In this document: piece after piece, positions 2,253 through 47,143 of the stretch
Numbering within the stretch: position 1 is the stretch's first letter
Layout: each line of letters begins with the position of its first letter
Origin: Pseudoalteromonas tunicata
Lineage (GTDB): Bacteria > Pseudomonadota > Gammaproteobacteria > Enterobacterales > Alteromonadaceae
Direction: 5' to 3'
DNA length: 64,000 nucleotides
NCBI RefSeq assembly: GCF_002310815.1
Contig: NZ_CP011033.1
Span: 558,001 to 622,000, forward strand
Made by a program: the position numbers and the translations under genes
Notes under the pieces: generated by a model
Told to the model about the DNA's origin: nothing
The model's input: the letters and a program-made list of their open reading frames with translations, nothing else
Databases searched by the model: none

Positions 2253-3434
2253 TTATTGTAATGGGAGGTCGTCTACATCTGCAATAGGCTGGCGTGGCCC
2301 TAGTTGCTCCATTAACCAATCGAGCGAACTTTTGGCAGTACTTCTAAAAGTTGTTAGTTTTCCACCATAGACATTAAGCAGGTTAGGGTGACCATCCGGG
2401 CTGTGAAATAAGGTATCACGTGGTTTTGCAAACGCATTGCCTGTTTGTTTTGGTAAGACGCGAACGCCACAAAATGTCGCACTAATTTTTGCTGTAAGTT
2501 GCTCTAGATTGCCATGAGCAGGAAAGTAGTGGTGATAAATACCGAGTAAATAATCTTGTTCTTGTTGGCTGGGAATGGGCTTTTGTTCAAGTGATGTGAT
2601 TTCAAGTTCTGTGGTGCCTAGTAAGGTTTTACCATACCAAGGAATAACAAAAACAACTCGATTATCGAAGCATGACTCAAGATAAACAATGCCATCTTGT
2701 GCCGGGATATCAAGTACTAAATGGCTGCCTTGCACCCATTCAATTGCTTCACTTTGCGCTGCAGGAGATACTTTTGCCAACACCTGATTGACCCAAGGGC
2801 CAGCTGCATTTATCACCATTTTGGCTTGTGTGGTATTGGCTTGATTATCTTTTAGGTAATGTACAAGGTAACCTTGATAATTCTTCTCAATTTTATTGCA
2901 TGATGCGCGTGAAGTGATGGCTGCGCCTAATTGTGAGGCGCTGCGAGCAACCGCTTGCGTGAGTAATGCATCGTCAGTTTGTGCATCCCAATATTGAAAT
3001 ACGGTTTTTAACCCATCGTGTTTAAGGCCTTTGAGGGTCTTAACTTGTTCATTGGTTAATGTTTTAAAACGACCTAAAGAGTCAAATCCACTTAAAAGTG
3101 CATAAAGTGATAAACCAATGCGAATTTGCCAACTTGGTCGCTGACTTGTTTGATAAATAGGAATATAAAAAGGAATTGGTTTGACTAAGGTTGGTGCGAG
3201 CGTCAGTAAGGCTCTGCGTTCATGCAGTGCCTTGTGGACTAAATGAAACTGCGCGGTTTCAAGATAACGCAAACCACCGTGGATCAGCTTACTTGAATTG
3301 GCGGAAGTTTGTTGGCCTATTACACCTTGTTCGAGTAGTTGTACCCGATATCCTTGAGCGCTTGCAAATTGTGCAATGCCAACGCCAGTGATGCCACCAC
3401 CAATAATTACAACATCCACTGCTAAATTTTTCAT
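2253..3434 (-). CDS. glpD: Glycerol-3-phosphate dehydrogenase-like FAD oxidoreductase (short GlpD)
   Basis: 393 residues from ATG 3434 (GGGG 5-8 bases upstream); an alternative ATG at 3455 adds seven residues. The Rossmann FAD motif is clear (VVIIGGGITGVGIA), as are the GlpD blocks SSKLIHGGLRYLE, NAAGPWVNQVL and NVYGGKLTTFRSTA near the C-terminus. Such enzymes oxidise sn-glycerol 3-phosphate to dihydroxyacetone phosphate and pass electrons to quinone. The E. coli protein is about 500 residues with a C-terminal helical domain; here the protein ends soon after the GGKLTTF block, so that domain is missing. It could therefore have another substrate. It is the first gene of a likely GlpD-OYE-FKBP operon. 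Confidence 0.8.
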   Translation of the reverse strand: MKNLAVDVVIIGGGITGVGIAQFASAQGYRVQLLEQGVIGQQTSANSSKLIHGGLRYLETAQFHLVHKALHERRALLTLAPTLVKPIPFYIPIYQTSQRPSWQIRIGLSLYALLSGFDSLGRFKTLTNEQVKTLKGLKHDGLKTVFQYWDAQTDDALLTQAVARSASQLGAAITSRASCNKIEKNYQGYLVHYLKDNQANTTQAKMVINAAGPWVNQVLAKVSPAAQSEAIEWVQGSHLVLDIPAQDGIVYLESCFDNRVVFVIPWYGKTLLGTTELEITSLEQKPIPSQQEQDYLLGIYHHYFPAHGNLEQLTAKISATFCGVRVLPKQTGNAFAKPRDTLFHSPDGHPNLLNVYGGKLTTFRSTAKSSLDWLMEQLGPRQPIADVDDLPLQ

Positions 3435-15257: not shown

Positions 15258-17483
15258 ATGGTAAAAATAAATAAAATAACAACATTACTTTCTTTGATGC
15301 TTATGGGTCAAAGTTACGCTGCATTTGCCCAAGACATCACAATCACTGACAAAACAATCAATGAAAAAGGTGAAGTGACATTTTTAGCAGGTGAGCTCGG
15401 ATTGGTTAATGCAGGTAAAACAATTACAGCAGTAAAACAAGTCATTGCATCTGAAGCAAGTTATGCTGCAAATGGTAATGAAGACTTTTCAATTAAAAGA
15501 CAGTGGGTTGATGAGTTAGGAAAACTTCATACTCATTTAAATCAAACAATTAACGGCTTAAAAGTCTATGGTACAAGTTTGATTGCACACGCAACAGTAC
15601 CTACAGCTTCGTCAACGGCGTCAGTTGCTAACGCTGGTTCACAACTTTTTGCATTAAGTGGCACACTTGCTGTCGCAGCGGAGCAGTCAGTATTATCATT
15701 GCAAAGCATGAGTCAGGTGCAAAGTACTGCACGCATTAATCAATTAGTAGCTGAAATGGGGGAAGTAACATCAAGTGCTGAGCTCGTTTATGTCTACTTA
15801 CCACTGAGCAAAGAAACAAAACTTGCTTGGAAAATTGATGTTAAATATCAAGGGATAAACGGTTTTGAGCACGATAGTGTTTTCTTTGATTTTAGTACGT
15901 TAAGTGAGATTGCACGCCATGCTAAAGTGCATTCTGCTAAGCAATACAATACTTATACCCATAATAATCGTCCTTACAATGATAGCTCACAACGTCAGCT
16001 ATTATGTTCAACGTCGCAATCGTGTGCTGATGCTGCGGCGCAGCGTGCGCATACTGGGGCTTCGGTTGTATATGATTATTATAAGAATAAGCATAACCGT
16101 AACGGAATTAACAATAGTGACTTGGTGATGAACTCAAACGTTCATGTTGGGAGTAACTGGAATAATGCAGTTTGGTACAATAACCAAATGTTTTACGGTG
16201 AAGGAGACGGCAGCCAATTCACTGATTTCACATTATCATTCGACATTATTGGTCACGAGCTGACTCATGGTGTGACTGAATATACAGCAGGCTTAATTTA
16301 CCAAAATGCGTCAGGTGCATTAAATGAAGCCTGGTCTGATATTTTAGGTGTCTCAGCTGATGCCTATAAACGAGGTTCTTCACAACCAATTTGGAAGTTA
16401 GGCCAAGGCTCTTATACACCAGGTACGCCGGGCGATGGCTTACGTTATATGAATAATCCAACGCAAGATGGTTATTCAACAGATTATTATCCTGAGCGTA
16501 TTCCGTTTACAAATAATCCAACAGATCAAAATGATCGTGGTGGTGTTCATGGTAATTCAGGCATTGCAAATTTAGCTTATACATTGTTAGTTGATGGTGG
16601 AAAACACCCTCGTAATAAAACCACAGCAACAGTACCTGCAATTGGATTAGCAAAAGCTGAAAAGATTTTTTATCGTGCTTTAACAACGTATTTTACACAA
16701 TCTACCGACTTTGCTGCAGCAAGAACTGGCACAGCGCAAGCAGCGCAAGACTTATATGGCACAGCAGAAAAAACCGCGGTTGAAACGGCATGGTGCGCTG
16801 TTGGTGTCGGAAGTTGTCCAACAGGTGGTACAACTCCGCCACCAACCGGTACAACAGTATTAGTGAACGGTACGCCAAAAACTGGCTTATCAGCCGCAAC
16901 GAATGCAGAGCTTTTATTTACTTTTGAAGTTCCTGCTGGCGCAACCAACATTAAAGTTGCAACGTCTGGCGGAACCGGTGATTCAGATTTATATGTAAAA
17001 TTTGGCTCAGCAGCTAATGATGGCAGCTTCGATTGTCGTCCATATGAAAATGGTAATGCTGAAAGTTGTACATTAACCTCAACTGGTGGAACTTACTATG
17101 TTCGTTTAAAAGCTTATGCAGCGTTTTCTGGTGTAACATTAACAGGAAGTTATACTTCTGGTGGCACTGGCTCAGTACAACCTATTAGCGAAACGGTTAA
17201 TAATGTTAGCGTTGCTCAAGGTGCTTGGACACGTTACACCTATGATTTACCTGCAGGTTACGCCAATATGACCATAGCTATATCTGGTGGTACAGGTGAT
17301 GCAGACATGTATGTACGTTTTGGTGCGCAATCAACTACTAGTCAGTATGATTGTCGTCCATTTAAAAACGGTAATACAGAATCATGTAGCTTTTCAGCAC
17401 CAAAAGCAGGTACTTGGTATATTGATTTAAGTGGCTACGCAACAGCGTCAGGTGTAACGCTAACATTAAAAGCAAATCCATAA
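15258..17483 (+). CDS. Secreted M4 (vibriolysin/pseudolysin-type) metalloprotease with two PPC domains
   Basis: 741 residues. Signal peptide about 1-25 (ending AAFAQD), then an FTP/PepSY-type propeptide (about 26-205), then the thermolysin-like catalytic domain (about 215-520). Zinc ligands are His333 and His337 of HELTH and Glu357 of NEAWSD; the substrate-stabilising His is His431 in GGVHGNSGIANLAY. Two tandem C-terminal PPC beta-sandwich domains follow (about 535-635 and 645-740), each with GGTGD-D-YV and DCRP-NGN-ESC repeats. Such domains are usually removed after secretion or aid binding to insoluble protein. AGGA precedes the ATG. Export is probably by the type II system. It is an extracellular protein-degrading enzyme. 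Confidence 0.95.
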   Translation: MVKINKITTLLSLMLMGQSYAAFAQDITITDKTINEKGEVTFLAGELGLVNAGKTITAVKQVIASEASYAANGNEDFSIKRQWVDELGKLHTHLNQTINGLKVYGTSLIAHATVPTASSTASVANAGSQLFALSGTLAVAAEQSVLSLQSMSQVQSTARINQLVAEMGEVTSSAELVYVYLPLSKETKLAWKIDVKYQGINGFEHDSVFFDFSTLSEIARHAKVHSAKQYNTYTHNNRPYNDSSQRQLLCSTSQSCADAAAQRAHTGASVVYDYYKNKHNRNGINNSDLVMNSNVHVGSNWNNAVWYNNQMFYGEGDGSQFTDFTLSFDIIGHELTHGVTEYTAGLIYQNASGALNEAWSDILGVSADAYKRGSSQPIWKLGQGSYTPGTPGDGLRYMNNPTQDGYSTDYYPERIPFTNNPTDQNDRGGVHGNSGIANLAYTLLVDGGKHPRNKTTATVPAIGLAKAEKIFYRALTTYFTQSTDFAAARTGTAQAAQDLYGTAEKTAVETAWCAVGVGSCPTGGTTPPPTGTTVLVNGTPKTGLSAATNAELLFTFEVPAGATNIKVATSGGTGDSDLYVKFGSAANDGSFDCRPYENGNAESCTLTSTGGTYYVRLKAYAAFSGVTLTGSYTSGGTGSVQPISETVNNVSVAQGAWTRYTYDLPAGYANMTIAISGGTGDADMYVRFGAQSTTSQYDCRPFKNGNTESCSFSAPKAGTWYIDLSGYATASGVTLTLKANP

Positions 17484-37642: not shown

Positions 37643-38620
37643 GAAGTATTTGACATCGATATTGCCGCGTATGCAGTGATGTCGAATCAGCAAAATGCCG
37701 GGAGCATTTTACAACAGCGAAGCTGGTCGACAGATGTAAGGCAGGAGCCTGAAATATTACCACTTGGTGCTGAGAGTGGATAGAAGTTGGGCATTAAATT
37801 GGTCAAAAGAGGAGGTGATTGAGCGCTGGTATCAGTTGTATAACCGCACAGTTTTGGTTGACCGCTACAGAAAAGGTGAGCAGCTTGATAAAGCATACAT
37901 GTATAGCGTCGATAAAACAGTGGAAGTGTGGCGAAATCGACTTTACGACATCAGTTGGTACATGCGCAATCTAAATGAATTTATAGCTAGAGAAGCGAAT
38001 AAAGAAGATAACTGCACAGGCCGATTTTATTCGCTGCCATCCATGGCGCTCACCCTTCGGGCTGCCTAGGGGCATTAAAATTCATTCCAGATGAATTTTT
38101 GGGAGGGCGATCCCTTTTAAATTAAGAGTAATCGCAAGCGCTATTAGACGAGCAAGCAGTACTCAGTAGCATGATGTACGTTGATTTAAACCCCCATCAG
38201 AGCCAAAATGGCTACAAACCTGCATAACAGCGACTTTACATCGATTCAAAAACGTATTGGGTATTATAAAAAACAGTCTACGTTAGAAAACACCGAACAA
38301 GTTACTCAGCAACCCAAGCAACTTAGGGCGTTTGGCAGTAATGCAAACAACCAAACCATTCCCTTTAAGTTACTGGGTTCTTTTCTACTGACAGCTAGAA
38401 CTCGCTGATTGGAGCGGGCGTCACATTGACCCAAAAAAGCGTGGTGCTATCAGCAAAACCCAACCCAAGATATTAGTTGAGCTAGGGATTGAAACTGCGG
38501 TCTGGCTTGAAACTTTACAAAACTTCAGGCGGCAATATAGCAATTTCGCAGGCCAACAAAATACGCTTAGACAATGCGCCCATCAACATCAACAAAGTTG
38601 GTATCGCGGGGTCGGTTAAC
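37643..38620 (+). pseudogene. Y1 (IS200-like/RAYT-type) transposase remnant, copy 1
   Basis: Pieces of one transposase appear in order but in different frames. FDIDIAAYAVMSN is followed by a 67-base insertion (37688-37754), then YHLVLRVDRSW...VIERWYQLYN...ISWYMRNLNEFIAREANKEDNCTGRF. After an inserted ~95-base hairpin-bearing stretch (about 38030-38125) come [36 protein letters not shown] and, after another shift, QLELADWSGRHIDPKKRGAISK...SWYRGVG. The normal protein has HUH-type His residues just after AYAVMSN; here that site is broken. At least four disruptions make it non-functional. Two more copies of its 3' part lie at 40250 and 42300. Confidence 0.85.
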
Positions 38621-38841
38621 TCGCAGTTTTAACCTTCATACAAGCAAACTAGGTATCCGCCTAATTTTGTAATGCCTGAAAATCGGACAATTCTTATAGC
38701 TCAAGCCAATTTATGCGCATCATCAGTTTTGATGGTGAAAATTCCCTAAATCAATTACTTCCACACTGAAGCCATTTAGCACATCAGTACATTTGATGGC
38801 GATTTTCAAGTTGCTATTTGATGCAAGTTATTTAAAATCAA
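37993..38841 (+). repeat. Long direct repeat, copy 1 (transposase 3' half plus tail)
   Basis: 849 bases that match 42413-43259 nearly base for base, covering the 3' half of the dead transposase, its inner hairpin insertion (AAAATTCAT / ATGAATTTT at 38077-38099) and about 220 bases of non-coding tail ending TTATTTAAAATCAA. A 392-base part (38229-38620) is also present at 40250-40641. Confidence 0.92.
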
Positions 38842-38879
38842 AGATATATTTTTGTCTGTCTTATATTTTGTTTTAGAAC

Positions 38880-39171
38880 GAGTATAGACACTCATTATTA
38901 CCTGACATCAGTCACAGATAACGCGCTAATTAGTAAAGCGATTAGGCACCATTGGTTGATATAAAACCAACAACACTGGATATTGGATGTCGTGTTTAAA
39001 GATGATGCATCTCAAATTTACGATCCGTTAAGTGCACAACATATGGCGTTATTTCGTCGAGTGGTTAGAAACATGGTAAAACAGCATACGAAAAGTAATA
39101 GTTCAATAAGAAGTAAGTGCGTAAGAGCTTGTTATGACGATGCTTTTAGAGAGGAATTGTTGTTCGGTTAA
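38880..39171 (+). pseudogene. ISAs1-type DDE transposase, C-terminal remnant
   Basis: The frame reads THYYLTSVTDNALISKAIRHHWLI, then a stop (TAA at 38962-38964), then NQQHWILDVVFKDDASQ... to FREELLFG and a natural stop. The HW-IEN--HW-LDVVF-DDA pattern is the C-terminal Glu region of ISAs1/IS4-like DDE transposases. One G to T change (GAA to TAA) in HWLIEN would explain the stop. The N-terminal three quarters are absent. It lies between two copies of the tail sequence (38835 and 39222), so it is debris in the island. Confidence 0.7.
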
Positions 39172-39292
39172 CATCGTTAATAAAGTGTGCTCGCGCCCTG
39201 TCTTTGAAATAGATATTGTATTGTTTATTAATACAAATTATTTTAAATCAACGAGATATCTATGAGTGGCATATATTGGCTTTTTCAGAAAG

Positions 39293-39399
39293 CCACATGA
39301 ACAGATGTTAACGAACAAAAAGAATAAACGATTTATTTTGTATTTTTTACAAGATAAAAACCGCTCATGCTTGCAAAGTGGGTCGTGTCCATATATGTC
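39293..39399 (+). repeat. 107-bp repeat, copy A
   Basis: Starts CCACATGAACAG and ends CCATATATGTC. Matches 42164-42270 (inverted) and 44681-44787 (direct) at the same length with few differences. A copy of the transposase tail (ATTTTAAATCAACGAGATAT, 39239-39258) stands just before it, so it is probably the outer end of the transposase-bearing element. Confidence 0.88.
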
Positions 39400-39500
39400 A
39401 GATATTTCTATTCTAGAGATTGGATAAACGTGATTTAATCTTTAATGAAATTGGTACAAGACAGCAATATGTTATCTGTGCTCCATCTTAATTTCGCTAC
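39400..39500 (+). other. Possible 3' end of a lost gene before a terminator
   Basis: A short frame (about 39418-39492) ending KRDLIFNEIGTRQQYVICAPS then TAA, followed closely by a strong terminator. It has no convincing start and may be the remnant tip of a larger gene (for example an old toxin tip) cut by the repeat. Weak evidence. Confidence 0.25.
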
Positions 39501-39526
39501 AAAAAACTCGCTTCGGCGAGTTTTTT
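39501..39526 (+). terminator. Strong rho-independent terminator
   Basis: AAAAAACTCGC / GCGAGTTTTTT with a TTCG tetraloop, a textbook bidirectional terminator with no intact gene directly upstream, which supports the idea of a lost gene. Confidence 0.9.
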
Positions 39527-39625
39527 GTTCATTATTTACTTCACTTTACTTTACTTTATGCAATACACTTATTTTAAGCTATTTAAATGGATTAAATAGT
39601 GTTGCGTTTTTTAAAAGGAACCTTT

Positions 39626-40429
39626 ATGAAGTATTTCATTCTACTCACTATCATTTCAAATATATTTATATCAACTTACACACAAGCTTCTCAACCAACA
39701 ACTGCAATTTATTGTGATTACTGTAGTGCCCAAGGTAAGGAAGTTAATGCCTTAAGTTCAGCATTTATGAATGGTCAAAAAATTTGGGTAATAGACCAGC
39801 AAGGTACTGATTTTATTATCGAAGAGTACCGTGCTGTTCAGCAATCCTCTGGCGATATTAGTCAAGTAGATGACTTTTATGTTGAATTGATTTCTACGCA
39901 CCATAAAAGTTCAGCGCTATCTAAAGCAGTCAGTAATGCCATTATTGCCATGCGTAATGCGATGATTAGCATAGACGAAAGCATATCCCATATACAATTA
40001 CCAGCAGATGATGAGTTTCAAAGTGCTTTTCAAATTGCCAGTTTTCATAAACAGTTTTCTGGTCAAATGAGTGATAGGATTATGAATGATTCTCATATCA
40101 AACAACAATTTGATATTATTGATGCGCAAATGCAGCAATTGCAAGCCAACTTATCTATATCATTACCATTTATTGGTACCTCCTTAAACTTATCAAGTCA
40201 AATAAGGGTTATGTTCAATGATGGCACATCGGCAGAAATGACCGTAGATAGCGACTTTACGTCGATTCAAAAACGTATTGGGTATTATAAAAAACAGTCT
40301 ACGTTAGAAAACACCGAACAAGTTACTCAGCAACCCAAGCAACTTATGGCGTTTGGCAGTAATGCAAACAACCAAACCATTCCCTTTAAGTTACTGGGTT
40401 CTTTTCTACTCACAGCTAGAACTCGCTGA
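39626..40429 (+). CDS. Secreted unknown protein fused to a transposase-derived tail
   Basis: 267 residues from ATG 39626 (AAAAGGAACC upstream). Signal peptide about 1-22 (ends YTQAS), then TTAIYCDYCSAQG with a CxxC pair, and a mostly helical part to about residue 208 (...SSQIRVMFNDGTSAEMTVD). At 40250 the sequence becomes identical to the dead transposase repeat: the last ~60 residues ([16 protein letters not shown]... to the stop) are transposase sequence in frame. The natural C-terminus has therefore been replaced or cut off. No family recognised. Whether the chimera is stable or functional is unknown. Confidence 0.65.
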   Translation: MKYFILLTIISNIFISTYTQASQPTTAIYCDYCSAQGKEVNALSSAFMNGQKIWVIDQQGTDFIIEEYRAVQQSSGDISQVDDFYVELISTHHKSSALSKAVSNAIIAMRNAMISIDESISHIQLPADDEFQSAFQIASFHKQFSGQMSDRIMNDSHIKQQFDIIDAQMQQLQANLSISLPFIGTSLNLSSQIRVMFNDGTSAEMTVDSDFTSIQKRIGYYKKQSTLENTEQVTQQPKQLMAFGSNANNQTIPFKLLGSFLLTARTR

Positions 40430-40866
40430 TTGGAGCGGGCGTCACATTGACCCAAAAAAGCGTGGTGCTATCAGCAAAACCCAACCCAAGATATTAGTTG
40501 AGCTAGGGATTGAAACTGCGGTCTGGCTTGAAACTTTACAAAACTTCAGGCGGCAATATAGCAATTTCGCAGGCCAACAAAATACGCTTAGACAATGCGC
40601 CCATCAACATCAACAAAGTTGGTATCGCGGGGTCGGTTAACTATCACATTTACCTGTTTTTGCGGGTAAACAAGGCACAGCCTAGTTTTATCATGCCCAA
40701 AAATCCGATATTTCATGCCAATTTATGCTCACCAGTGGTTTTGATGTAAAAAGCCGCAATATAAATTTCTCTCAAGCAGCCTTTATTTAAATCCATTACT
40801 CCCTTTGATATCGATTTTGTGTTTTTTTAATACAAACTATTTAAAATCAACAAGATATTTATGAAT
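40250..40866 (+). repeat. Transposase 3' remnant and tail, copy 2
   Basis: 40250-40641 is nearly identical to 38229-38620 and 42648-43038, including the same frameshift between the GSFLLTARTR end and the LADWSGRHIDPKKRG segment. From 40642 on it diverges but stays recognisably related to the tails of the other copies, ending AACTATTTAAAATCAACAAGATATTTATG. The gap 40641-40977 holds only this tail and a terminator. Confidence 0.88.
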
Positions 40867-40890
40867 GTCGGATATTTTTTGCAAACAAAG

Positions 40891-40915
40891 AAACCCCTGT
40901 GCAAGGCAGGGGTTT
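40891..40915. terminator. Bidirectional terminator
   Basis: AAACCCCTG / CAGGGGTTT with a 7-base loop, downstream of the minus-strand secreted-protein gene that ends at 40978. Confidence 0.75.
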
Positions 40916-40977
40916 TGCGGATAGCTCTATATTTAACTTATAGCAGCTATGAAATAATGCTGATAGTCAGACGCTTA

Positions 40978-41835
40978 CTAGAAATTTCTTAGTTTTGTAA
41001 TTACGCCTTCTATCTCCGAAAATTTATCAGCATAGTATCGCCTTTCGGCTAGTTCCTTGTCAATTTCCCACTCTTCCATATCTTGGGCAATCCAAGGGTT
41101 GTTGGTGTGCCCAAGAGTAACCGCGGCTTGTATGTTGCCGTGCGGGTCGACTAATTGGCACGCTTCTTCATAATATTGGTCATAAGGAGAGGTAATCATG
41201 TCGCAATTTTCTCTCAGCGGTAAATCAGCTTGTTTCTTTGCCGTTAATAGTGACTCAAGACGATTAGCAAGTAGGTTAGCTCTGGCGCGCACGGCGTTTT
41301 GAGTGATAAATCCCTGCAGGTGTCGTTCAACATAGATAGACAGGTTTAACGATGCCGCCAAAGCAAGCGTGTCGGCCATGTAATAATATTTATCGTTAAA
41401 TTGGCTATTCAGCGCATGATGAGTAATGAGGCCGTCTGAGTCAGTTAATAAACTCCCCAGGACTGCAATATCAGGGGTTCCATTTGCTGCGGTATCGTTG
41501 AAATACTGCATACTCAATTGGATAGACTCTAGCTCTGCAAAGTATTCAAATTCGGCGGTATCCACCAGTTCAATGCGAACTCTGTCCTGAATTGCTTGTA
41601 AACTTTCCTGGCTGAGATTGACATAACTTGGGGCTGAAGAGCCAAAAATAGCATCAATAAGAAGAGAGGATAATTGCCCTCCCGCAAAACTGATAAATTT
41701 GTCCTTTGCTTTGTCTAATATCTGCTCACCAAACGAAGCTGCATCATTTTCTTCGCCAGCAAATGCACTTCCAGAACTAAAGCTTAACGTTAATCCGAAG
41801 CAAATCGCAATAGGTAGTTTTTTAAATAGCATCAT
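40978..41835 (-). CDS. Secreted protein of unknown function
   Basis: 285 residues from ATG 41835 (AAGGA upstream; ATG 41832 is equally possible). Signal peptide about 1-27 (ends GSAFAGE). A short helix-rich start with a small hydrophobic patch (KFISFAGGQLSSLLIDAIFG) is followed by a long helical region (ALNSQFNDKYYYMADTLALAASLNLSIYVERHLQGFITQ) and a charged C-terminus (IDKELAERRYYADKFSEIEGV). Two cysteines (CDMI, ACQL) could form a disulfide. No family recognised. It sits alone in the repeat-rich island, so it may be cargo. The intact signal, RBS and terminator argue that it is a real gene. Confidence 0.75.
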   Translation of the reverse strand: MMLFKKLPIAICFGLTLSFSSGSAFAGEENDAASFGEQILDKAKDKFISFAGGQLSSLLIDAIFGSSAPSYVNLSQESLQAIQDRVRIELVDTAEFEYFAELESIQLSMQYFNDTAANGTPDIAVLGSLLTDSDGLITHHALNSQFNDKYYYMADTLALAASLNLSIYVERHLQGFITQNAVRARANLLANRLESLLTAKKQADLPLRENCDMITSPYDQYYEEACQLVDPHGNIQAAVTLGHTNNPWIAQDMEEWEIDKELAERRYYADKFSEIEGVITKLRNF

Positions 41836-42163
41836 TTTTTCCTTAAAGTTTAATACAAGTGTTTATCCTGAGAATATTCATATCTGAACTATTTATGGGT
41901 ACAAATGTAACCTACCTGACTTTTTATGTAAACGATCATTGGTTTTTCATAATAAAAATTTAACATTTAGTAGACGGGGATTAGAAGTGACGCATAACTA
42001 ATATAACTTTCGATATACCTACGGCCATTCAGGCATTGTGCAAACTAAGCAGCTACTTCTGAAACTGGACCATTTTGAAAAAGTGCTGAAGATAAAGCCG
42101 TCGGTTCAAGCCTGGCTGTAATAAAATGTCATGGTGTTGCAACATCAGTGGAACAGAATACTA
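41836..42163. other. Degenerate sequence upstream of the inverted repeat
   Basis: No intact gene. A short frame at about 42023-42121 (GHSGIVQTKQLLLKLDHF... to TAA) may be the tail of a lost gene but has no start and no recognised family. Confidence 0.3.
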
Positions 42164-42270
42164 GACAAATATGGACACGGCCCACTTTGCAAGTTTGAGC
42201 GGTTTTTATCTTGTAAAAAATACAAAAAAAATCGTTTATTCTTTTTGTTTGTTAACATCTGTTCATGTGG
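42164..42270 (-). repeat. 107-bp repeat, copy B (inverted)
   Basis: Reverse complement of 39293-39399, same length. It forms an inverted pair with copies A and C, flanking the copy-2 segment on one side and the copy-3 plus IS segment on the other. Confidence 0.88.
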
Positions 42271-42299
42271 TTTTCTAATTAATTGAAAGACATATAAGA

Positions 42300-43038
42300 C
42301 ATATATGTACAACGTTGATAAAACGGTCGAAGTGTGGCGTAATCGACTTTACGACATCAGTTGGTACATGCGACTTTCGTTTTAAAATAAGTAAACGAGT
42401 TTATTGCCAGAAAAGCGAATAAAGAAGATAACTGCACAGGCCGATTTTATTCGCTGCCATCCAAGGCGCTCACCCTTCGGGCTGCCTAGGGGCATTAAAA
42501 TTCATTCCTGATGAATTTTTGGGAGGGCGATCCCTTTTAAATTAAGAGTAATCGCAAGCGCTATTAGACGAGCAAGCTGTACTCAGTTGCATGATGTACG
42601 TCGATTTAAACCCCATTAGAGCCAAATTGGCTACAAACCTGCATGACAGCGACTTTACATCGATTCAAAAACGTATTGAGTATTATAAAAACAGTCCACG
42701 TTAGAAAAAACCGAACAAGTTACTCAGCAACCCAAGCAACTTATGGCGTTTGGCAGTAATGCAAACAACCAAACCATTCCCTTTAAGTTACTGGGTTCTT
42801 TTCTACTCACAGCTAGAACTCGCCGATTGGAGCGGGGGTCACATTGACCCAAAAAAGCGTGGTGCTATCAGCAAAACCCAACCCAAGATATTAGTTGAGC
42901 TAGGGATTGAAACTGCAGTCTGGCTTGAAACTTTACAAAACTTCAGGCGGCAATATAGCAATTTCACAGGCCAGCAAAATACGCTTAGACAATGCGTCCA
43001 TCAACATCAACAAAGTTGGTATCGCGGGGTCGGTTAAC
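42300..43038 (+). pseudogene. Y1 (RAYT-type) transposase remnant, copy 3
   Basis: It begins inside the gene (VDKTVEVWRNRLYDISWYM), then has a scrambled stretch, EDNCTGRF and the same hairpin insertion as copy 1. After [10 protein letters not shown], the [30 protein letters not shown] part is better preserved than in copy 1. A base is missing in an A run near 42690 and the frameshift before LADWSG is shared with the other copies. No N-terminal catalytic part. Non-functional. Confidence 0.85.
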
Positions 43039-43259
43039 TCGCAGTTTTAACCTTCATACAAGCAAACTAGGCATCCGCTTAATTTTGTAATGCCTGAAAA
43101 TCGGACAATTCTTATAGCTCAAGCCAATTTATGCGCATCATCAGTTTTGATGGTGAAAATTCCCTAAATCAATTACTTCCACACTGAAGCCATTTAGCAC
43201 ATCAGTACATTTGATGGCGATTTTCAAGTTGCTATTTGATGCAAGTTATTTAAAATCAA
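42413..43259 (+). repeat. Long direct repeat, copy 3
   Basis: 847 bases matching 37993-38841. The IS110-type element follows within about 20 bases of its end. Confidence 0.92.
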
Positions 43260-43352
43260 TGAGATATTTATGGCTGATGAGATGGACACTCCCAAAACGG
43301 CGTCTATGCGCCAAACTGGAAGTGAAACTCAGTTATTCTAGGAGCATCCATC

Positions 43353-44372
43353 ATGAAGTGTAGAACTATTGGCATTGATTTAGCAAAATCTGTTTTCCAA
43401 GCGTGTGGAGTGAATCAACATCTAAAACCTGTTTTTAATCAACGATTAGCTAGGCGTGATTTTTATGCTTTTATGGCAGAGCAACCGCCCACGCAAGTGG
43501 TGATGGAAGCCTGTTATTCATCCCATTATTGGGGTCGAGAATTAACCCAATTAGGGCATACTGTCTGCCTAATCCCCGCTCAACATGTTACGCCCTTTGT
43601 TCGAGGGAATAAAAATGACCGCAATGATGCTCTAGCCATTGTTGAAGCAAGTCAACGACCTAACATTCGATTTGTGCCGATAAAAAGTGAAGCGCAACAA
43701 GAAGTCATGGCATTACATCGTATTCGTGAACGGTTAATCAAAAACAAAACGGCCTTAACAAACCAAGCACATGGTTTATTGAGTGACTTTGGGATTATTT
43801 TTAGCCAAGGAGAGCGCTGCTTTTCTGTCATGGCCCATATCGTCGCGGCAAGCTCACACGTGAGCGAAAATATAAAATCTCTTGTTGCCATGTTGCATGA
43901 AGAGTTTTTAGGGCTTAAAGCCAAGTTAAAAGTAATCGAAGCCAAATTAAAACAAAACTTAACCCAGTTTCCACAAGCAGAAATACTGCTTAGTGTGCCA
44001 GGAGTTGGTTACATCATCGCTTCCGCGTTAATTGCCTGCATTGATAAAGGGCAAGCATTTAAAAGCGCAAAAGATTTTGCTGTTTGGTTGGGAATAACAC
44101 CGCGCCAATATGCATCAGGTTCACATAGTTATATGGGCAAAATATCAAAGCGAGGCCATCGTTATTTACGCAAGCAACTCATTCATGGCGCCAGAGCCGT
44201 CCTTAATCGCTATAAAAATGAAAACGATGCGCTCAAGGTGTGGGGTGAATCGGTCGCACATCGACGTGGTTTTAATAAAGCGGTGGTTGCAATTGCTCAT
44301 AAACTTGCGCGAATTGTTTGGCACTTGTTGCAAAAAGATGTGATGTACCAACCTCAACATATAAAGGCCTAA
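43353..44372 (+). CDS. IS110-family transposase (DEDD recombinase)
   Basis: 339 residues, intact. N-terminal DEDD RuvC-like domain: Asp9 in GIDLAKSVF, Glu in VVMEACYSSHYW, and the Asp pair in NKNDRNDALAI. C-terminal Transposase_20 domain: LLSVPGVGYIIASALIACI, FAVWLGITPRQYASG and RGHRYLRKQLIHGARA, which includes the serine region used for strand cleavage. These enzymes insert with target choice guided by an element-encoded RNA. RBS AGGAGC precedes the ATG. The frame is undamaged, so the element may be active. A short left end and long right end resemble the IS1111 group. Confidence 0.95.
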   Translation: MKCRTIGIDLAKSVFQACGVNQHLKPVFNQRLARRDFYAFMAEQPPTQVVMEACYSSHYWGRELTQLGHTVCLIPAQHVTPFVRGNKNDRNDALAIVEASQRPNIRFVPIKSEAQQEVMALHRIRERLIKNKTALTNQAHGLLSDFGIIFSQGERCFSVMAHIVAASSHVSENIKSLVAMLHEEFLGLKAKLKVIEAKLKQNLTQFPQAEILLSVPGVGYIIASALIACIDKGQAFKSAKDFAVWLGITPRQYASGSHSYMGKISKRGHRYLRKQLIHGARAVLNRYKNENDALKVWGESVAHRRGFNKAVVAIAHKLARIVWHLLQKDVMYQPQHIKA

Positions 44373-44374
44373 CA

Positions 44375-44640
44375 TGAAGATTTCACACCATAACGTTATT
44401 TGTAAATGGTTACTAATTAAGCCATTACCTAAATAGCAACGGGTTGTTCACACCACTGTTAGCTAACACATGTTGATGAGTAAACGGTTTTCCCGCTTGA
44501 AAATAACCTGGGTGAGACAAGGGTTTAAAATCCGTGTGGGTGTTTAGGTATTTCAAGTACGGAATTCATCAGAGGCCGGCGGGAGTCAACTCCCGCCACT
44601 CTTCTCCTCAGAATCAGAGGAAAGAACAGAGCCTGTATAT
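44375..44640 (+). ncRNA. Putative bridge/seek RNA region at the right end of the IS110-type element
   Basis: Non-coding and structured: a perfect 9-bp hairpin GGCGGGAGT / ACTCCCGCC (44578-44597) followed by a TCCTC / GAGGA hairpin (about 44604-44620). In IS1111-group elements the guide RNA is encoded downstream of the transposase gene, which fits this position and size. RNA ends and guide loops cannot be set by eye. Confidence 0.45.
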
Positions 44641-44680
44641 ATGTCAGTGCTGATATTTTTAATATCTATTTATCAGAAAA

Positions 44681-44787
44681 CCATATGAACATATGTTAAC
44701 AAACAAAAAGAACACACTATTTATTTTGTATTTTTTACAAGATAAAAACAGCTCATGCTTGCAAAGTCGGTCGTGTCCATATATGTC
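44681..44787 (+). repeat. 107-bp repeat, copy C
   Basis: Same orientation as copy A and same length. Its end (GTGTCCATATATGTC) abuts the first Rhs-like codons, so the repeat marks the point where the Rhs gene lost its 5' part. Confidence 0.88.
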
Positions 44788-46366
44788 TTTTTTCTTTCTC
44801 TACAAAGAAGATTGCAGTGAAGTGGCCGGTAAAGTCACGATTGATAAAACGACGTATTTAGGTAATTACGAAAAAAATGAACACATCACGGATGATAAAA
44901 CCGTGATAGAGCATAAATACTATATCGGCGATATTATTGTTACGCAGCGCAGTGATAACACCACCGATACATTCTACCTGCATAAAGATCATCAAGGCTC
45001 AGTGATTGCGACCACGACCACTAATCAGCAAGATCAAGCCGAGGTGGTATCACAAGCTATGTATGATCCGTTTGGCAAACGTACTTCAGTGTATCTGGCT
45101 GCTAAGTTTGATGTATTTACCTACAGTCAGCCCACAGATAGAGGTTATACGGGGCATAAAATGCTCAGCGCCTTGGATATTATCCATATGAACGGTCGGA
45201 TCTACGATCCAACCTTGGGTCGATTCCTACAAGCTGATCCGTTTATTCAGGCTCCGGGTAATAGTCAGAGCTATAACCGATATTCGTATGTATTGAATAA
45301 TCCGTTGAGTTATACAGATCCAAGTGGGTATTTCTTAAAAAAACTATGGCAAACAACAACCGGGACTGTGCTTAGAGCAATTGCAAAAGTTCCAATATTA
45401 AACTCAATTATAACAGTCGGATTGAATTTTATTCCGGGGTGCCAAGGTTGGTGTTCAGCAGTTTATACAGCAGCTAGTACATATGCTGTAACAGGAAATC
45501 TTACAGGGGCATTAAAAGCAGGTGCAATAAGTTATCTGAGTGCGCAAGCTCTTCAAGGTGTCGGTGGTAGCGAGTATTGGGGAGACGCTGGAAGTATTCA
45601 AAACGTTGCCGCAAATGCAATGATTGGTGGTATTTCGACGGAATTACAAGGAGGTAAATTTGGACACGGTTTCTTCAGTGCAGGTATAAATGCGGCGTTT
45701 AAGCCTTCGATAAACAATATTGGTGGTGAAAATAGTGCTAACTCAGCTGTTGCTCGAGGGGATACTGCAGCGCTCAATTTATATAAGGTACACAGGGCTA
45801 TTGCTGCTGGTGCTATAGGAGGAACTGCTTCAGTAGTTTCGGGTGGCAAATTTGCAAACGGAGCTGTAACTGGTGCGTTTACACAGATGTTTAATAATGA
45901 GACAAACAATCATCGAAAAGCCACTCATAAATATATAGAGATTTTAATTGATAGGGGGGACTCAGCTAGTAAGCAACAAGCTATCAATTTAACTGTAACC
46001 CACTTTGGTATAGACTTGGGGCACAAAGGAAAATTCAATTATCCGACATATGACCCTACGTTAGATTCTGATGGGCAAATAAATAATGGAATATTAATAG
46101 GGGATGGAGCATTTAGAAGTGTCGGATTTTTAGCTTCGACGATTTATCATGAAATGCAGCATATAAGAATGGGTAGCGTCACTGGGGATGAGTTTCAAGG
46201 CGAAACATTAAGTAATATGGAAGTTCGTGCCTATGATGCAGAATTACAAAACTCTAACCGATTTGGGTTATCGGGAAGTGAGCTTTTGGATATTAGAGGG
46301 AGACGAAGTGCCCACTGTATGTCTATTTCATCTGCGACTCGTGGGGAGTTTGGAATATCATGTTAA
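44788..46366 (+). pseudogene. 5'-truncated Rhs/YD-repeat gene with putative zinc-metallopeptidase toxin tip
   Basis: The frame is open from 44693, but its first ~32 codons are repeat sequence, so the true 5' part is lost. From about 44810 it encodes an Rhs core end (TFYLHKDHQGSVIATTT, YDPFGKRT, GYTGHKMLSALDIIHMNGRIYDPTLGRFLQADP, YVLNNPLSYTDPSGYF). A Gly/Ala-rich pre-toxin region follows (about 46360 minus 1000 to 460 bases), then a C-terminal tip of about 150 residues with HEMQH (His486 and His490 counted from 44693) and a later NMEVRAYDAELQN that could supply the third ligand. This suggests a zincin-like toxin. It may be a displaced Rhs tip kept for recombination. The C-terminal frame is intact. 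Confidence 0.75.
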
Positions 46367-46812
46367 CTAAAATACAAATTTTATTATTTCTAATTGTACA
46401 GTTTTTGTTTACGTGTAAAGCCAGTGAGCTAGAAGTGTTATTATTTGAAACGAATAGCGATATTAAGGTCCTATTGTCAAACAGCTCTTTGGACAATGTT
46501 TTGATAGAAAGTAAACTGATTTTCTGGGACTGCTCATTCGTAGGTAATTTATGTATTGAGGCGAAAACACTATCCGGAGATAACATGCCAGTGCATTATA
46601 GTCCAAAGCGATTCGATGTATCTTTTGGAGATCGTTTTGAATTAAGGCCTAGCAAAATTACAGGGGTTTCACTTTCAAAAGATAAGCTATCAATGATGCT
46701 TAAACTTAAAAAAGATAGCTCTGTGTATATTACAGTGCATTACCACAATAAGTCTTTAGACAAGGTTTTTAGTTCGAAGCCAACAAAAGTCGATATAGAA
46801 AGAAGGAATTAA
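46360..46812 (+). CDS. Candidate immunity protein for the Rhs tip, secreted
   Basis: 150 residues. The ATG at 46360 overlaps the Rhs stop codon, the usual arrangement of a toxin tip and its immunity gene. The N-terminus is a signal peptide or lipoprotein-like segment (IQILLFLIVQFLFTCKAS, Cys19). The rest is beta-rich (KVLLSNSSLDNVLIESKLIFWDCSF, SFGDRFELRPSKITGVSLS) with two further cysteines. No family recognised; function is inferred only from position. Export would imply that protection is needed in the periplasm. Base composition is AT-rich like the toxin tip. Confidence 0.65.
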   Translation: MLTKIQILLFLIVQFLFTCKASELEVLLFETNSDIKVLLSNSSLDNVLIESKLIFWDCSFVGNLCIEAKTLSGDNMPVHYSPKRFDVSFGDRFELRPSKITGVSLSKDKLSMMLKLKKDSSVYITVHYHNKSLDKVFSSKPTKVDIERRN

Positions 46813-47143
46813 TGATAAAGACAGAAATGATGGACACCCACTCCAATTTGCATGTTGGGGTGGTTTGTCTAAGCTTTAGTTTCTTCAAAATCATGTTCAA
46901 AAAATCATCACCATCAACAAGGTCATTTTCGTCTAGATTTTGAAAACGGTTTTTGACTAACGCAAGTTTTTCAATCTCATCGATATCGGAATCGAGGTGA
47001 TCTTCGCATCGAAAGATAATTTTCTTGCGAATAGCGTTTGGTCTATCTGGTGATGGTGCAATTATCTCAGTTCTAATATCGACATGCTTTTTGCAGCAGG
47101 CCGAGCATTCGGCATTGTGAAAATCAATTTTGCTTGTCGGCAT
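46769..47143 (-). CDS. Small unknown protein with Cys/His-rich N-terminus
   Basis: 124 residues from ATG 47143 (ATG 47155 adds four). MPTSKIDFHNAECSACCKKHVDI holds a C-x2-CC-x2-H cluster that might bind zinc, and a later FRCEDHLD. The middle is charged and helical. The last ~25 residues (EWVSIISVFIINSFFLYRL) are hydrophobic and overlap the end of the immunity gene on the other strand, so the original C-terminus may have been lost. No family recognised. It probably follows the tiny gene at 47198 in one transcript. Confidence 0.5.
   Translation of the reverse strand: MPTSKIDFHNAECSACCKKHVDIRTEIIAPSPDRPNAIRKKIIFRCEDHLDSDIDEIEKLALVKNRFQNLDENDLVDGDDFLNMILKKLKLRQTTPTCKLEWVSIISVFIINSFFLYRLLLASN

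Follow-up and report, generated by a model that had tools for sequence, protein, structure and literature searches.

Three described groups of bacterial toxins provide the closest comparisons for a displaced Rhs toxin tip and its downstream neighbor in Pseudoalteromonas tunicata, at positions 44,788–46,812 of a 64,000-nucleotide stretch of contig NZ_CP011033.1 (the whole stretch is "the window" below). First, in the Tpe–Tpi pairs (VgrG2b C-ter/PA0261 and Tpe1/Tpi1), the toxin has a zinc site formed by HExxH and a Glu and is toxic in the periplasm; the immunity protein is exported, bears Cys, and requires disulfide formation for its neutralizing effect (PMC6899460). Tpe toxins are delivered by the type VI secretion system (T6SS) and are often annotated as DUF4157 (PMC6899460). 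Second, the 2012 polymorphic toxin catalogue includes small HExxH domains that form the C-terminal end of RHS proteins, i.e., Tox-MPTase1–5 and Tox-HopH1 (Peptidase_M91); its table gives no immunity protein for Tox-MPTase1–5 (PMC3482391). Third, Salmonella LT2 has orphan rhs-CT/immunity modules, described as a toxin and immunity fragment without start and export signals (PMC3967940).

The window pair resembles the Tpe–Tpi pairs in its predicted HExxH-plus-Glu site and its exported-looking, Cys-bearing neighbor, but its tip belongs to the SpvB/TcdB class of Rhs proteins, and no Pfam match to DUF4157 was found for the window domain or 11 family members. Like Tox-MPTase1–5 and Tox-HopH1, the tip is a small HExxH domain at the end of an RHS protein; unlike them, no member of the window family reaches any of these family cut-offs. 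The Salmonella orphans are similar in arrangement, with two differences: the window's genome has no main rhs gene that we could find, and the truncation point coincides with the end of an IS110-family insertion sequence (IS).

On balance, we lean slightly toward reading the locus as an orphan Rhs toxin/immunity cassette, truncated at an IS110 end, with a probably silent gluzincin tip that would act after export and an exported, immunoglobulin-like (Ig-like) blocker resembling a protease propeptide. The locus would descend from a long SpvB/TcdB-type Rhs polymorphic toxin. Its tip would be a small gluzincin-type zinc peptidase, with H84, H88, and E108 as ligands and E85 as general base, and would cleave a peptide bond of a periplasmic or envelope substrate, which may be protein or peptidoglycan. 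The product of the next gene, which starts at 46360, would be exported, probably disulfide-bonded, and able to bind the tip. The features, all on the forward strand, are as follows.

44693..46366, +, open frame of 557 amino acids (aa); about the first 32 codons are read-through from the IS end and the remainder is Rhs; stop codon 46364–46366
45062..45328, +, Rhs repeat-associated core, residues 124–212 (TIGR03696, E 2.1e-18; score 66.6 bits, cut-off 32.5)
45329..45898, +, pretoxin region, a linker rich in Gly and Ala that other Pseudoalteromonas Rhs proteins also have
45899..46363, +, toxin domain at the C-terminus (155 aa), predicted to be a metallopeptidase of the gluzincin type
46148..46162, +, HEMQH, domain residues 84–88
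46220..46234, +, E108-xxx-Y112 in NMEVRAYDAELQ, proposed third metal ligand (Glu codon 46220–46222) and invariant Tyr
46316..46363, +, Cys pair near the end of the toxin (C140 and C155 of the domain)
46360..46812, +, candidate exported immunity protein (150 aa), modeled as an Ig-like beta sandwich
46360..46422, +, its signal peptide by a simple rule, probable cleavage after A21 (CKA-SE)
46531..46554, +, C58-(6)-C65 pair of the immunity candidate

A first-pass annotation, made from the letters of this DNA, had described an intact Rhs core end and tip with HEMQH and a downstream Glu, followed by a gene for a small exported protein that overlaps the toxin stop codon. This anatomy holds. With a core upstream of a variable C-terminal domain, the frame is that of an Rhs polymorphic toxin tip; it is not a full-length Rhs, since the genome has no RHS repeat match at E 0.001 and the Rhs sequence begins at the IS end. 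The neighbor starts before the toxin stop codon, giving an overlap of 7 nt, and its N-terminus combines a Lys with a hydrophobic stretch (hydropathy 3.03 for the best 11 residues) and a CKA-SE-type cleavage site.

The sequence of the tip supports its prediction as a zincin-type metalloprotease. Gluzincins are defined by HExxH with a downstream Glu ligand ~20 residues on, and the tip carries this arrangement. When relatives are aligned in 11 rows, there is no variation at E85, H88, E108, or Y112, and H84 is conserved in at least 90%; H88, E108, and Y112 are still invariant in 16 rows. The Glu lies 20 residues after the second His in the window and 19–21 after it across the nine loci measured; thermolysin has the same spacing (~20). 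A C-terminal Cys pair, in two spacings, is present in five of nine toxin loci. The comparison with toxin families that the first-pass annotation had proposed was blank for the window domain, for which Pfam gave no family at E 10, and returned weak, sub-threshold zincin matches for relatives. Specifically, Peptidase_M91 (NleD/HopH1) matched three of 11 members (best E 0.0035), with P0003, P0005, and P0006 scoring 14.5–15.5 bits against a cut-off of 25, and Tox-MPTase5 weakly matched two of 11 (best E 0.0055), also short of the Tox-MPTase1–5 cut-off. The UniRef label of P0004, "Tox-MPTase4 domain-contai..", was not reproduced by the Pfam scan. VgrG2b C-ter is not among the 50 fold matches listed, although the absence of it or of other zincins from that list is no evidence against them.

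The tip is rare. It was found in 5/108 genomes sampled from the genus, 6/395 from the family, 2/369 from the class, and 2/398 from the phylum; these samples overlap, and each count includes the window's genome. The distinct genomes are the window's own and G007, G047, G092, G103, G132, G309, G360, G399, and G942. A further candidate in G666 (L023, E 7.7e-5) was left out because its similarity is confined to the surroundings of HExxH. Protein databases yielded two relatives with the single tip sequence and 10 with a profile, P0003 and P0004 coming from genomes already counted. Searches of viral_contigs, of genome_contigs with the single sequence, and of plasmids and phages by tblastn gave no result, and a search of the BFVD viral structures gave no match at E 0.001. 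A profile scan of genome_contigs returned three loci: the known P. piscicida one, and two Bacteroidales proteins (L026 and L027) that were dropped as chance matches. Separately, four of the 16 aligned rows (P0001, P0002, P0010, and L009:1471-1956) form a subfamily with an extra residue, HExEVH, a spacing reminiscent of dipeptidyl peptidase III; the first His is Leu in P0002, and P0010 is apparently a stand-alone exported protein. The window also holds, at 15258–17483, a gene for an M4-type secreted metallopeptidase (HELTH, thermolysin-like by eye).

The case for the 46360 gene as the exported immunity candidate of the tip is supported by its recurrence as an exported-looking neighbor and by the modeled fold of its product. 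An exported-looking gene follows the tip in all nine loci with an intact neighbor, the window included, where signal peptides were judged by a simple hydropathy rule with start codons picked by eye, and where two of the nine (L019 and L020) are near-identical. In a tenth locus, from P. ulvae, stop codons break both genes. Within the immunity family, C65 is present in six of six rows and C58 in five of six. No Pfam family matched the 46360 protein at E 10, and PF12690 (BsuPI) matched none of nine proteins scanned. The model of the 46360 protein resembles protease propeptide and inhibitor domains and has the Ig-like fold of the AsaP1 propeptide (2x3a/b/c) and of BsuPI/IPI (3isy).

This likeness suggests a mode of inhibition. 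The 46360 protein may block the active-site cleft of the tip as a metalloprotease propeptide does; we regard it as possible, though doubtful, that the protein is in effect a detached propeptide of the AsaP1/BsuPI kind, acting in trans as an active-site plug for a gluzincin Rhs toxin. The precedents differ in two respects. The AsaP1 propeptide reportedly acts in cis, on a protease of the aspzincin type that we take to be an M35 enzyme, and IPI acts on subtilisins. In the literature searched, the name BsuPI was found for the IPI structure only and, among the matches listed, not together with immunity; the wordings IPI and propeptide-with-immunity were not searched.

The Rhs frame is cut short at its 5′ side by the IS110-family element, whose features are as follows.

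43256..44788 (about), +, IS110-family insertion sequence, transposase and long non-coding right end; the ends are those of the part common to three copies
44669..44787, +, 119-nt repeat of the first-pass annotation, the right end of the IS110 element

The transposase (43353–44372) matches PF02371 (E 1e-23) and PF01548 (E 2.5e-18), i.e., it has DEDD transposase and Transposase_20 domains, and the unit is multicopy: two other full copies (C1:2255367 and C2:353354) are each ~97% identical over >1,530 nt. Similarity to long Rhs proteins of the genus is recognizable from within ~30 nt of the IS end; therefore, the first ~32 codons of the 557-aa frame are IS sequence, and the same frame is also open at the end of another IS110 copy. 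The first-pass annotation had the 5′ part of the gene replaced by a 107-bp repeat. The repeat is there, but it measures 119 nt and is the right end of the element, so the event is a truncation at the IS end and not a mere replacement. For the same reason, an integron attC site or a miniature inverted-repeat transposable element is ruled out. Lone, diverged copies of the right end lie at 39281–39399 (+) and 42157–42276 (−). No empty site was found among seven relatives, because these match the window only in the right flank (maiA/hmgA by eye), except for short upstream-repeat stretches in L060. The region 37888–43152 also contains repeats of ~300, 223, and 87 nt (families D1–D3), each present two or three times and in part overlapping the gene at 39599–40429 at its 3′ end; three open reading frames (ORFs) in this region matched no Pfam family above cut-off.

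The parent gene appears to be absent. No full-length rhs turned up when the rest of the genome (4.96 Mb in two contigs, completeness 100) was searched, as the first-pass annotation had advised: of 17 candidates scored with PF05593, none passed E 0.001, and TIGR03696 matched at the window locus only. Sheath genes of a T6SS are present (two VipB matches), but the window Rhs is of a different class. Its core plus linker matches sequences in 73/108 genomes of the genus (its own included), many in frames of 2,300–4,900 aa, as against 5/108 for the tip. One long relative, on a G047 contig named Pseudoalteromonas piscicida, has 2,447 aa, an apparent signal peptide, and SpvB, FG-GAP, TcdB_midN, and RHS domains. 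In another genome (G092:C1:690000-704000), several displaced Rhs core-plus-tip cassettes stand in series, interleaved with small genes, as judged by eye.

These observations bear on whether the locus has any present role. We give an even chance to the view that it is a dead relic, i.e., the IS110-truncated 3′ end of an Rhs gene whose toxin is untranslated or non-functional and whose two genes now do nothing. This view and the cassette reading are not exclusive, since both take the tip as silent. By eye, no ribosome-binding site or export signal was seen at the start of the 557-aa ORF; promoter-like sites number two against 8.6 expected; in P. ulvae, both members of the pair are disrupted; and the parent rhs was not found. 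Separately, an Rfam scan of 36–50 kb gave nothing at gathering score. A candidate terminator, weak by its chance expectation, follows the pair:

46838..46863, +, terminator-like hairpin 3′ of the immunity gene (two such hairpins found in the stretch, 1.5 expected by chance)

Against decay, the frames are intact over >500 and 150 codons, and the catalytic residues and the overlap are kept. Moreover, Salmonella orphan Rhs tips can become active again by recombining with a main rhs gene (PMC3967940), although none was found in the window's genome. Under the cassette reading, the loss of the delivery part means that the tip is probably silent at this locus, whereas its immunity gene may still shield the cell from toxin-carrying relatives. 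As no main rhs gene was found, the pair is unlikely to serve as a weapon at present; any benefit would more probably come from keeping the immunity.

Where the toxin would act is less clear-cut than the neighbor's signal peptide suggests. In control loci with Rhs tips of the same class in the genus, 16 of 19 neighbors have a hydrophobic N-terminal segment (15 of 18 without the family's own L039). These 19 remain from 29 loci, after setting aside seven without a recognized core ORF (22 left) and three without a neighbor; L030 and L031 look identical, and the rule was looser than that used for the tip loci, with several starts tried and a threshold of 1.9. An exported neighbor is thus a property of the whole Rhs delivery class. 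Export alone is uninformative about the action of the tip. The earlier claim that an exported immunity protein implies an envelope-acting toxin is therefore plausible but weaker than stated, and the Cys pairs in the immunity family and in five of nine toxins, which suggest an oxidizing compartment, lend it further support. The same control allows a different account, in which the target of the toxin is cytoplasmic or is a eukaryotic cell, and the neighbor is exported only because this class of Rhs crosses the producer's periplasm. The Tc-like architecture of the full-length relative (SpvB, TcdB_midN) and the sub-threshold matches to the NleD/HopH1 effector family fit such a target. We consider it unlikely: a need for self-protection in transit already presupposes activity in the periplasm, an immunity protein without a signal would be expected for a cytoplasmic target, and the Cys pairs point to an oxidizing workplace.

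It is improbable that the 46360 gene encodes an unrelated exported protein, even though its binding and protection are predictions. A homologue directly follows the toxin homologue in G103 (45% identity), in G047 (L008), in G309 (L018), and, apparently, on a 1,635-base metagenome contig, and the 7-nt overlap recurs in L008. An earlier immunity query already contained the neighbors of L007, L008, L009, and L018, so its recovery of them proves nothing. A fairer test used a profile built from three sequences (the window protein, P0015, and the P. ulvae fragment), with signal peptides removed, against 929 ORFs plus the test set. The neighbors of L008 (E 7.6e-9) and L018 (E 1e-5) were recovered, and P0016 (E 0.012) and the L009 neighbor (E 0.036) were borderline. 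The neighbors of L010 (hhalign probability 5.5%), L019, L021, and L024 were not found, which speaks for the unrelated-protein view. Against that view, a homologue of the L009 neighbor occurs in G128 with no such toxin in the 3.4 kb of its locus, which is the situation expected of an orphan immunity gene. The toxin relatives thus have as partners at least one exported protein in common and several others that look unrelated.

Two further candidates for the immunity family, L078 and L079, were rejected: without their signal peptides, they scored E 0.09 and 0.015 among the 929 ORFs, values no stronger than those of L080 and L081, which are unrelated. Their loci are of separate interest. L078 has a different Rhs tip (2-1480), with HEALHNAGLDH, presumably a metzincin-like motif, followed with a 4-nt overlap by a small exported-looking protein (1480-1887); it would be a further tip of metalloprotease type with an exported partner. 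L079 has a small exported-looking protein (1495-1833) upstream of a thermolysin-family gene (FTP, Peptidase_M4; 2311-3174). In G309, L082:1-543 is a second zincin-like tip, with HESYH and then EIEAH; the next gene has a hydrophobic N-terminus, and a degraded immunity copy lies nearby.

Least probable of all, by a little, is that the tip is a zincin-fold non-peptidase, e.g., an iron/alpha-ketoglutarate oxygenase resembling the HEXXH enzymes found in pathways for peptide natural products: the match in its favor is weak, and alpha-ketoglutarate is not expected in the periplasm. That match also fits a peptidase because the fold of HEXXH oxygenases recalls that of zincin proteases, and PflC, one such enzyme, hydrolyzes peptides as well (PMC12636437).

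The locus thus offers a compact, putative peptidase/antidote pair with a recurrent neighbor and a structural hint at how the antidote may work, in an Rhs cassette that survives in frame, cut at an IS110 end, in a genome where no parent rhs was found. If the propeptide-like mode of inhibition is true, protease propeptides and some toxin immunity proteins would share one inhibitory fold, and a zymogen-style lock would serve as the antidote to an interbacterial weapon.
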